Assembly: GCF_021018745.1 (NCBI RefSeq)
Contig: NZ_CP063845.1
Coordinates: 1,302,001 to 1,366,000, forward strand
Direction: 5' to 3'
Origin: Gloeobacter morelensis MG652769
Lineage (GTDB): Bacteria > Cyanobacteriota > Cyanobacteriia > Gloeobacterales > Gloeobacteraceae
DNA: 64,000 bases
The notes under the pieces were generated by a model. That model was not told where the DNA came from. It saw only the letters and a program-made list of their open reading frames with translations, and made no database searches. Within the stretch, counting starts at the first letter, position 1. Each line of letters starts with the position of its first letter. This document shows, piece after piece, positions 58,292 to 61,219 of the stretch. The position numbers were made by a program, and so were the translations under genes.

Positions 58292-59326
58292 ATGCACTCG
58301 GCGATGCTGTACGGGGTGGAAGATGTGCGGCTGGAGGAAGTGCCGTGTCCGGAGCCGGGGCCTGGGGAGGTGCTGGTGCGGGTGGTGGTGGCGCCCACCT
58401 GCGGCACCGACCTCAAAGTCTGGCTGCGCGGCGGCCACGCGCGGATGCTGGTCCCCCCGACGCCTTTCGGCCACGAGTTTGCAGGCGAAATTGCCGCCCT
58501 TGGCGAGGGAGTGAGCGGCTGGCGGAGCGGGGAGCAGGTGGTGGCTAACAATTCCGCTCCCTGCTTCGATTGCTATTATTGCCGGCGCGAGCGCTTCAGC
58601 CTCTGTGAAAACTTGATCTTCAACAACGGAACGTTCGCTGAATACCTGCGCATTCCGGCTGCCATCGTCCGCCACAACTTGCTTACCGTCCCGCCTGGGT
58701 TACCGCTGGAACTCGCGGCGATGAGCGAACCGCTCGCCTGCGTGCTGCACGGCGTCGAAGAAGCGGGGGTCAGGGCGGGCGATACGGCGGTGGTGATGGG
58801 GGACGGTGCGATCGGCCTGATGCTGGTGGCCGTCTGTGCTGTGCGCGGGGCTGCGGTGATCCTCGCAGGCGGCCAATCGGCCCGGCTTGCCGTAGCGGAA
58901 CAATTGGGAGCACAGGTGACCCTCAACTACCGCCGGGCAGGCGATCCGGTGGGGCGGTTACGAGCATTGACCGAGGGTGGCCGGGGTGCGGATGTCGTTA
59001 TCGAAGCCACCGGCAAACCGGCCGCCTGGGAGGCGGCTATCGCCACGGCCCGACCGGGGGCGACGGTGCTGCTATTTGGGGGCTGTCCGCGCGGAACGGC
59101 GGTGAGCGTCGATACGGAAAACCTCCATTACAACGAACTGACCCTCAAGGGGGTTTTTCATAACACCCCGCGCCATGTGCGCGAGGCGCTGGCACTGATT
59201 GCTTGCCGGCGCATTCCTTTTGAATTGCTCGTGAGCGACAGTTTGCCCCTCGGCAAACTGGAAGAGGCCCTGGCGCGCATGCGCGATCGGACAGCCATCA
59301 AAGTGGCGATGCTGCCGGGAAGCTGA
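58292..59326 (+). CDS. Zinc-dependent MDR dehydrogenase (threonine/sorbitol-type)
   Basis: A 344-residue medium-chain dehydrogenase. The catalytic zinc site is CGTDLKVWLRGG with GHEFAGEIAALG, and the usual structural zinc cysteines are partly present in CFDCYYCRRERFSLCE. The Rossmann motif GDGAIGLMLVAV precedes a nucleotide-binding strand. It resembles threonine or sorbitol dehydrogenase relatives in secondary metabolism; the substrate is open. The ATG at 58292 has the ribosome binding site GGGAGAAC. There is no obvious partner gene. Confidence 0.8.
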   Translation: MHSAMLYGVEDVRLEEVPCPEPGPGEVLVRVVVAPTCGTDLKVWLRGGHARMLVPPTPFGHEFAGEIAALGEGVSGWRSGEQVVANNSAPCFDCYYCRRERFSLCENLIFNNGTFAEYLRIPAAIVRHNLLTVPPGLPLELAAMSEPLACVLHGVEEAGVRAGDTAVVMGDGAIGLMLVAVCAVRGAAVILAGGQSARLAVAEQLGAQVTLNYRRAGDPVGRLRALTEGGRGADVVIEATGKPAAWEAAIATARPGATVLLFGGCPRGTAVSVDTENLHYNELTLKGVFHNTPRHVREALALIACRRIPFELLVSDSLPLGKLEEALARMRDRTAIKVAMLPGS

Positions 59327-59583
59327 ACGGTTGAGGGGCGTTCGGGGCTGTTTTGGTGATGGCATAGGCAAACCGTAAGGACTGTTGACGCCGCATGCGC
59401 TGCTGGAAAATCTTCGCCTGGTCCCTTTCGAGCGACGCACACGATCCATAGAAACCCGCCGTCGCAGGTTGGATACGCGCTACGCGATGTCCGCCCTGCG
59501 GTTGGATATACCGAACGATCTCGGAATCCAGAAATTCAGTTTGTTGCCAATCAAGTCAACACACTTTTGGAGACGTCACTTCC

Positions 59584-60189
59584 ATGGAAGAAGAAATGGA
59601 GCAGGAGCAGCCCGGTTTTTTTGAAGGGTTAGGCGAACAAGCGGACGAGATCGCCGGCGGTGTGAGCGAGGGGATCGCCGGGTTGTGGGGCGGCATCACC
59701 CAGGGAGCCGAGGATGCGTGGAATGCCACCACGGACTTCGTCGGCGAACAAATGGCCAATGTCGCCGGGTTCGCAGACGATGCCACCGATTACGTCCAAG
59801 AAAGTTACGCCGAGACCGGTGAATTCTTGGCGGAGGCCGGCGCCGACGCCGTCGGGACGACCGTGGGGGTGGCCTCAGAAGGGTCCGAATTGCTCAGCGA
59901 AGGCCTAGCTGAGGTCGGAGAACTGGCCCAGGACGGCGGCGAAGACCTCTCGGCGTGGGGTGAGCAACAGTCCGCAGAGGATCCCGAGGGAAGCCCCCTC
60001 GGCGAGGCGGCGCAGTGGACTGGCGAAAGCTTGGAAGCCGGCGGCGAATGGGCCGCAGAGACCGGCGAATTTGGCGATAACTTGTCCGAACAGACCGGGG
60101 AGACGGGTGACGATATCGTGGCTTACGATCCGGAGTTCGACGCCCCGCAAGATGACTATGTCGACCAGCTCGATGAGACCCTCAACTAG
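59584..60189 (+). CDS. Highly acidic protein with no Lys, Arg, His or Cys
   Basis: A 201-residue protein that, on my reading, contains no Lys, Arg, His or Cys at all and is very rich in Glu, Asp, Gly and Ala. Sequence such as GLWGGITQGAEDAWNATTDFVGEQMANVAG suggests amphipathic helices in which Trp, Phe and Val form one face, with loose repeats of the style AAxTGEF/AETGEFLAEAG. There is no signal peptide, so it should be cytoplasmic. The ATG at 59584 follows GGAG. I do not recognise a family; it might coat a surface, bind cations or resist desiccation, which are guesses. Confidence 0.6.
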   Translation: MEEEMEQEQPGFFEGLGEQADEIAGGVSEGIAGLWGGITQGAEDAWNATTDFVGEQMANVAGFADDATDYVQESYAETGEFLAEAGADAVGTTVGVASEGSELLSEGLAEVGELAQDGGEDLSAWGEQQSAEDPEGSPLGEAAQWTGESLEAGGEWAAETGEFGDNLSEQTGETGDDIVAYDPEFDAPQDDYVDQLDETLN

Positions 60190-60493
60190 AGCGCTTCAGA
60201 AGCTGCCCTGATATCGGCAAGCCTTGTCAAACCCCAGTGTCTAACGGTTTTGACCCTGACACCTGAGACTTGGTAGTTGGCTATGCACGACAGCGGGTGA
60301 GCGAAAGGCGGAACCCCCTTCGGGTTCCCCTCTCGCGCTCTCCCCCTCCCCGCGTCGAGGGGGTGCCACCCCCCCGACACCCCCCGGACTTATCGGCACG
60401 GTGGAGTACGAGAGTTGGTGGGTGGGGTGGGTTTATTCTTCTAGGGCGTGCACGACGCGTGTCGACTGCGGCGGCGGGGCTGGCTGGTCGTTT
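60190..60493. other. Gene-free stretch, 304 bases
   Basis: No reading frame here is convincing. The left part is ordinary, the middle is C-rich and G-rich (CCCCCTCC and CCCCCCCGACACCCCCC), and the right part holds copy 2 of a 30-base repeat (60443-60472). It may be the end of the acidic-protein transcript followed by a decayed gene. Confidence 0.5.
60443..60472. repeat. Copy 2 of a dispersed 30-base repeat
   Basis: It matches 52599-52628 with two substitutions. On the minus strand it encodes PPQSTRVVHALEE then TAA, very like the other copy's PQSTRIVQALEA then TAA, so both could be the 3' ends of lost related genes. Confidence 0.6.
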
Positions 60494-61117
60494 TTACCCT
60501 ACAGCATTGACTCGGGCACGGGCGAGCAGTTGACCCCGGTAGCGGTAGCCGACGGTTTTGATTTTGGCCGGCTCGCCCGGCGATAGCCCTGCTCCCTGGT
60601 GCAAGGTCGGATCGAAGGGCACCCGTTCCCCCGGTGTGCCAAGGGTTTCAAACCCGACATCGTGTACGAATTCTTCGAAAGGCAGCATCAGGTCGAGCAC
60701 CGTCTGGGCGCTGAGAGCCGGATTCTGGTCGGCCGCTTTGCGCAGGGTCGGCAACTGCAACAACAACAGCTCCACCCGCCGGAAAAACGCCAGATCCCAC
60801 GCTTCGCGCAGGTGGGCCTCAAGCTCGTTGAACTGGGCGCGCAGGCGCTCGTACTCCAGCTGCCAATCGGTGGTGGCCGGGGCAGCGACGGGAACGGCCG
60901 GCTCGAAGCGCTCGATCAGATCGGCCACGTCCACGCCGAAGGCTACGGCGATCCGCCTGAGGGTCTCCAGGCGGATCGCCGCGAGGTTGCCTTCCTGCAA
61001 ATGCCGGGCGGTGCGCCGACCGATCTTGGCGGTTCGGCAAAAGGCGCTCAGGCTTGCAAAGCCCGCCTCGGCCAGCAATTCCGTCAGCACCGGCTGCGTC
61101 CTCGCAGAGCCGTCCAT
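60494..61117 (-). CDS. HTH protein with GrpE-like C-terminal domain
   Basis: A protein of 207 residues from the ATG at 61117 (213 from 61135). Residues 10-65 look like an XRE-type helix-turn-helix (LTELLAEAGFASLSAFCRTAKIGRRTARHLQEGNLAAIRLETLRRIAVAFGV). A long helix follows (WQLEYERLRAQFNELEAHL). The end (VGFETLGTPGERVPFDPTLHQ, then KIKTVGYRYRGQLLARARV) follows the GrpE head pattern, in which an FDP-x2-H motif precedes a GY and an RxAxV strand. It is divergent from the amylase gene with 102 bases between. Role is unknown. Confidence 0.6.
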   Translation of the reverse strand: MDGSARTQPVLTELLAEAGFASLSAFCRTAKIGRRTARHLQEGNLAAIRLETLRRIAVAFGVDVADLIERFEPAVPVAAPATTDWQLEYERLRAQFNELEAHLREAWDLAFFRRVELLLLQLPTLRKAADQNPALSAQTVLDLMLPFEEFVHDVGFETLGTPGERVPFDPTLHQGAGLSPGEPAKIKTVGYRYRGQLLARARVNAVG

Positions 61118-61219
61118 GGCATACCCCATGACCACGACGATATCTTACCGAACCGGCACGTTCTCATGTTTGGTCGGCCTCCCCGTTCTCTATACTCAAG
61201 GGGGATTGAGGGGGATCCA

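Follow-up and report, generated by a model that had tools for sequence, protein, structure and literature searches.

The window, the whole 64,000-nucleotide stretch of Gloeobacter morelensis DNA analysed here, carries on its forward strand an open reading frame (ORF) at 59584-60189, of which both the coordinates and the translation into a 201-aa protein (P0001) are exact. It lies between a zinc-type dehydrogenase gene and a convergent Cro/C1-type HTH gene, beyond which a gene for an alpha-amylase with a CBM20 (starch-binding) domain begins, and these neighbours give no hint of a lipid or stress role. The features of the locus are as follows:

58292-59326, forward strand: zinc-type dehydrogenase gene, the 5' neighbour
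59327-59583, forward strand: upstream intergenic stretch, single copy, 95% identical in both orthologues
59569-59572, forward strand: GGAG, 11 nt ahead of the ATG, a candidate ribosome-binding site read by eye and the same in three genomes
59584-60189, forward strand: coding sequence of the all-acidic protein P0001 (201 aa), based on the ORF list, orthologues and dN/dS
59617-59979, forward strand: eleven gapless 11-residue units (residues 12-132) forming the hydrophobic and acidic faces of a putative 3-11 helix, based on periodicity and lag-11 rank
59980-59997, forward strand: putative Pro hinge DPEGSP (residues 133-138), at which the hydrophobic face loses its phase (moment 0.07-0.08 in spanning windows)
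59998-60117, forward strand: second amphipathic block (residues 139-178), phase shifted, based on its moment and on a helix in a low-confidence model
60109-60186, forward strand: acidic C-terminal tail (residues 176-201), overlapping the end of the second block and identical in all three orthologues
60494-61135, reverse strand: Cro/C1-type HTH gene, the convergent 3' neighbour
from 61220, forward strand: alpha-amylase gene with CBM20 domain

P0001 contains no Lys, Arg, His or Cys, exactly as the original prediction had claimed, and its 34 Glu and 19 Asp give 53 acidic residues and a computed charge of about -53 at pH 7. Gly (31 residues, 15.4%) and Ala (27 residues) are also abundant, and the GRAVY value is -0.54. 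Ten residues (A, D, E, G, I, L, P, S, T and V), which we take to be the prebiotic alphabet, make up 82% of the protein. A frameshift or a wrong start had been named as what could undo this picture; both were looked for and neither was found. No in-frame ATG, GTG or TTG lies upstream, the ORF list starting at the first start codon after a stop, and one orthologue has a 1-nt indel directly before the ATG, which argues against a longer, hidden N-terminus; the ORF list and this indel together rule out a frameshift or a concealed N-terminus. An antisense gene was likewise rejected, because stop codons interrupt the frame that was read on the minus strand of 59584-60189.

The upstream stretch 59327-59583 is likely the promoter and leader, and its 95% identity is near that of the neighbouring genes and thus not exceptional. 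A regulatory RNA in these 257 bp was rejected, as the stretch is single copy and had no Rfam match up to E 1; its fold is no more stable than that of shuffles (z-score +0.34). A terminator scan found none. A GC-rich palindrome (GGAACCC-CCTTC-GGGTTCC, 60310-60328) without a T-run lies 3' of the gene and is conserved in three of three genomes. In G001, presumably G. violaceus, the orthologue has directly downstream of it an ORF (L004:2274-3506, minus strand) whose product carries a Tn5 transposase dimerisation domain, and this ORF is absent from the window. In G003, presumably G. kilaueensis, the dehydrogenase and amylase genes lie apart, and no low-basic ORF was found beside either within 1.5-kb flanks.

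The proteome comparison proposed in the original prediction was run on 444 kb of the 5.10-Mb, three-contig host genome (the window plus 19 stretches of 20 kb), with 402 ORFs (100 aa or longer, non-overlapping and picked by length) as a rough stand-in for gene calls. Within this sample, which covers less than a tenth of the genome, so that ranks are not a whole-proteome count, P0001 ranked first of 402 on two counts. Its basic fraction is zero, the next lowest values being 0.8% (a hydrophobic 122-aa ORF), 2.3% and 2.6% (both acidic ORFs), and its charge of -0.264 per residue is the most negative, ahead of -0.174 for the runner-up. Among the 1437 ORFs that reach 100 aa in the six frames of the same 444 kb, no other lacks basic residues altogether. 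At the combined K+R+H+C frequency of this genome (14.4%), the probability of meeting none of the four in 200 residues is about 3e-14, and the claim that such an absence is very unlikely by chance is borne out by both figures.

Matches to P0001 at E <= 0.001 were found in four of 59 related genomes (its own included), namely the gene itself, two orthologues that are 85-86% identical to P0001 and have the same neighbouring genes, and a different protein that matched weakly. One relative, in the MAG Aphanocapsa lilacina HA4352-LM1 (G002), came from a pattern-limited scan of genome contigs. The homologue search in Gloeobacter that had been suggested thus yielded two same-place orthologues with the same kind of composition, rather than the homologues of normal composition that would have spoken against the prediction: P0002 has one Arg, and P0003 has one Lys and one Arg. 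This indicates that the strict zero belongs to this species and that a near-zero basic content is common to all. The dN/dS ratios of the three orthologue pairs were 0.40, 0.24 and 0.28, with most variation at codon position 3. Both dN (0.07-0.10) and dS (0.19-0.34) lie above those of the flanking dehydrogenase and HTH genes (dN 0.013-0.027, dS 0.056-0.137), suggesting that the gene evolves fast, under purifying selection. Judged from these alignments, the ORF is a real, constrained gene. In dS, the ORF exceeds its flanking genes roughly two- to threefold.

Among the three orthologues, a basic residue occurs in only two of the 49 variable columns. If nonsynonymous changes were random, K/R/H would be involved in 16-18% and K/R/H/C in about 20% of cases, and at 20% the probability of two or fewer of 49 columns is about 0.0015. 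Changes between basic and non-basic residues in the P0001 gene numbered 1 of 30 (5.0 expected) and 2 of 29 (4.9 expected). Control ORFs from the same 12 kb gave 23 of 77 (19.2 expected) and 21 of 68 (17.2 expected), in line with the mutational expectation; two of them (831 aa and 235 aa) are possibly partly or wholly non-genes, and the control without these gave 6 of 31 and 6 of 22. This is good but modest evidence that the gain of basic residues in P0001 is selected against, modest because the species pairs are not independent.

Beneath this composition lies a regular order. In each of the three orthologues, the spectrum of hydrophobicity has its maximum at 98 degrees (three turns per 11 residues), and none of 500 shuffles reached the peak of P0001. 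The hydrophobic autocorrelation is 0.44 at lag 11, 0.37 at lag 22 and 0.28 at lag 33; P0001 ranks first of 402 ORFs for the lag-11 value (0.439, next 0.219) and first of 366 for the coherent 122-residue moment (0.369, next 0.269). The hydrophobic face is centred at +36 degrees and the acidic face at -116 degrees, and none of 5000 shuffles was as face-segregated, for either hydrophobic or acidic residues. Within the 11-residue unit, position 5 is mostly hydrophobic and position 11 is acidic in 10 of the 11 units or nearly so. Residues 11-132 have a mean 33-residue moment of 0.36, a hydrophobic fraction of 0.41 and 18% Gly, and the net charge of this putative helix averages -7.0 per 33 residues. 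The last 26 residues are identical across the three species. The loose repeats remarked on in the original prediction prove to be the visible trace of this precise periodicity, although the 11-residue order itself and the invariant C-terminal tail had been missed. An AlphaFold2 model built from three sequences is nearly all helix at pLDDT 43, which is compatible with a helix and proves nothing, and a second model is also nearly all helix and of low confidence (pLDDT 53).

No family in Pfam, NCBIfam or PADLOC reached its cut-off for P0001, and none of the PADLOC-DB anti-phage defence models matched it. Matches to DUF2321 (Pfam, E 0.23, below the cut-off) and, weakly, to PHROG phage tape-measure proteins (best E 0.0034) were set aside as effects of composition and periodicity. 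Identity as a phage tail tape-measure protein was rejected for a protein of 201 aa beside dehydrogenase, HTH and amylase genes with no tail gene cluster, and so was a phage or plasmid origin, as tblastn against phages and plasmids gave no match and viral contigs held no relative. The best PDB match (E 0.33) is a chance one, and no solved structure matches. A search of the phylum (292 genomes) returned the gene itself and two weak matches (E 0.004-0.005), which were dismissed as ORFs with 73 and 52 Lys. From the outcome of the contig, phylum, phage, plasmid and viral searches, the gene is known here from three close genomes alone. In the open-licence literature, no paper was found on the gene or under the G. 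violaceus locus tags guessed from its position, and none of the papers listed by phrase searches appears to describe a natural protein without basic residues.

P0001 has gapless 11-residue units in common with perilipins, synucleins, exchangeable apolipoproteins and group 3 LEA proteins; family-model searches gave no significant sequence match to known 11-mer helix proteins. The other 11-mer helices (synucleins, apolipoproteins, LEA) carry Lys. Those of group 3 LEA proteins are Lys-bearing 11-mers of the TAQAAKEKAGE type, whereas P0001 has no Lys at all and no significant LEA Pfam match (LEA_4). Phasins are helical granule coats, and P0001 matched none of the phasin models PF09361, PF05597 and TIGR01985, unlike P0004, an 11-mer protein of G003, which matches PF09361. 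No PHA synthase was matched by TIGR01836 in nine genomes or by PF07167 in six (the host genome among both sets), which makes a role as PHA-granule coat unlikely. Hydrophilins are defined, in the accessible part of PMC4190154, by Gly above 6% and GRAVY below -1; P0001 exceeds this Gly content and is, at -0.54, too hydrophobic for a hydrophilin. Table 1 in the accessible part of PMC5889406 gives hydrophobic moments of 0.257 for Plin4, 0.30 for alpha-synuclein, 0.35 for Plin3 and 0.39 for ApoA-I, with hydrophobic fractions of 0.35-0.47, and both values of P0001 fall in the same range as those of these lipid-binding helices. Its gapless period and its moment (0.36 vs 0.257-0.39) are those of the 3-11 amphipathic-helix class. 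The difference lies in charge: Plin4 is net +1 per 33 residues and has Lys, according to the same part of PMC5889406, whereas P0001 is at -7.0 with no basic residue. By sequence, P0001 is of the 11-mer amphipathic-helix type and, by the criteria tested, is not an LEA_4 protein, a phasin or a hydrophilin. Amphipathic 11-mer helices are already known; what is new here is the hidden 11-residue period in a near-basic-free, all-acidic protein.

The reading that we put first, tentatively and somewhat short of even confidence, is that P0001 may be a cytoplasmic, conditionally folding, all-anionic 3-11 amphipathic-helix coat or protectant, for which we infer the following folding, surface, location and purpose. 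The free chain would be soluble and largely unfolded through its own charge repulsion; screening of this charge (by divalent cations, high solute or water loss), together with a surface at the hydrophobic face, could turn it into a long helix. The likeliest surface would be weakly negative, for example deposits of neutral lipid or the Gloeobacter membrane, which is rich in galactolipids and lacks sulfolipid. The bound protein would then act as a reversible coat or protectant, like the 11-mer LEA, perilipin and phasin helices, and its conserved acidic tail may contact a partner. Among the roles guessed at originally, coating fits best, because over 121 gapless residues the hydrophobic side chains line up on a single face of a 3-11 helix, whereas metal sequestration, buffering and nucleic-acid mimicry found no specific support.

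According to the accessible part of PMC5889406, a net-negative Plin4 helix left lipid droplets and returned with more hydrophobicity, which suggests that negative charge is a handicap and not a bar; that version had -1 per 33 residues, far smaller than the charge of P0001. The anionic sulfolipid SQDG is given as missing from Gloeobacter in the accessible part of PMC3806779, and the neutral lipid acyl-plastoquinol as accumulating in G. violaceus in that of PMC12048435, and as far as these sources go, both would ease the binding of an anionic protein. Against a coat stands the charge itself, which is far outside that of the tested lipid-binding helices, so that anionic membranes would repel P0001, and also the low pLDDT of 43, helix and surface binding both being predicted. 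A more specific and rather unlikely version would make P0001 a cation-gated anionic counterpart of synuclein and perilipin, folding and binding only when cations or water loss screen its charge; that its basic residues were purged by selection, and that it is fitted to the sulfolipid-free, thylakoid-less Gloeobacter membrane, we would hold with similar reserve.

The 11/3 periodicity with 3-4-4 spacing is equally a signature of hendecad coiled coils, and the weakly matching PHROG tape-measure proteins share such patterns, so the hydrophobic faces could instead pack into a helical bundle or filament, with divalent cations between the acidic faces as stabilisers. We consider this unlikely: the hydrophobic face is wide and rich in Ala, Gly and Thr, salt-bridge partners are absent, and 18% Gly in residues 11-132 is unusual for a stable coiled coil. 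An equally unlikely alternative is a polyanion without a defined surface partner, which would bind cations (Ca, Mg, Fe, polyamines) or basic proteins, or mimic the charge of nucleic acids. The presence of 53 negative side chains and of no positive one over 201 aa, the apparent selection against basic residues and the almost always acidic position 11 of the unit all suit it, yet a charge function needs no 11-residue hydrophobic order, which is the strongest among the 402 genes, and no PADLOC model matched. Many type I secretion substrates are acidic and Cys-free with a C-terminal signal, and P0001 is likewise acidic and Cys-free with an invariant C-terminal tail that could be an export signal; having no Lys or Arg, this species' copy could not carry an ordinary Sec or Tat signal peptide, which would fit such a route. 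Type I-like secretion is nevertheless very improbable, as the adjacent genes examined include no transporter and Pfam gave no match to RTX repeats.

A surface-coating role, if real, bears on a general rule, as membrane-coating amphipathic helices are usually thought to need Lys or Arg, and a conserved natural protein of 201 aa without either tests it. P0001 likewise puts to the test what the prebiotic-alphabet designs PV1 and PV2 ask, namely whether a purely acidic protein can fold and work; the accessible part of PMC3880840 describes these two as acidic halophilic proteins whose folding is stabilised by salt. Those are designed beta-trefoils (same source), whereas P0001 is a natural, helical-repeat protein that keeps Trp, Phe, Tyr, Gln, Asn and Met. 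If the cation-gated reading were true, P0001 would show in a living organism that a protein can work without basic amino acids. With no trypsin site and no lysine, P0001 would be missed by standard tryptic proteomics. Proteins without Lys and Arg are missed by this method in general and are poorly stained by Lys/Arg-binding dyes, so that proteins like P0001 may be systematically overlooked.

P0004, the openly repetitive acidic 11-mer protein of G003 (241 aa, with four Lys, two His, no Arg and no Cys), passes the Pfam cut-off for Phasin_2 (28.8 vs 24.9 bits) and has a 53% identical relative, L017, in the genome of the window. Both resemble P0001 in their 11-residue period, strong acidity, lack of Arg and very few basic residues, but lie at other loci and have an N-terminal Gly/Ala-rich hydrophobic segment, and the repeats of P0004 are nearly identical to each other. 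P0004 and P0001 align weakly and over a short stretch (hhalign probability 29%, profile E 2.9e-6), so convergence is possible. A P0004 relative of 191 aa, an 11-mer protein whose N-terminus is hydrophobic and Gly-rich, is encoded at L027:6131-6706 (minus strand, C1 near 341-343 kb), and the adjoining ORF (L027:5236-5937, minus strand) encodes an acidic protein of 233 aa that had no Pfam match; by eye, the acidic tail of this protein, which bears Tyr, resembles that of P0001. The ORF at L043:7762-8796 (minus strand; 344 aa, acidic, eight basic residues, no Cys, no Pfam match) has a weaker periodicity at lags 22, 7 and 18 and is possibly another acidic helical-repeat protein. A Pro/Glu/Ala/Leu-rich ORF of 3239 aa (L031:3029-12748, plus strand; 2.6% basic, no Cys, no Pfam match) ends in a stretch of ordinary composition that, to our mind, recalls contractile-injection tape-measure proteins. 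In the ORF at L045:1968-3923 (minus strand, 651 aa), a calpain-type cysteine protease domain occurs together with RTX calcium-binding repeats.
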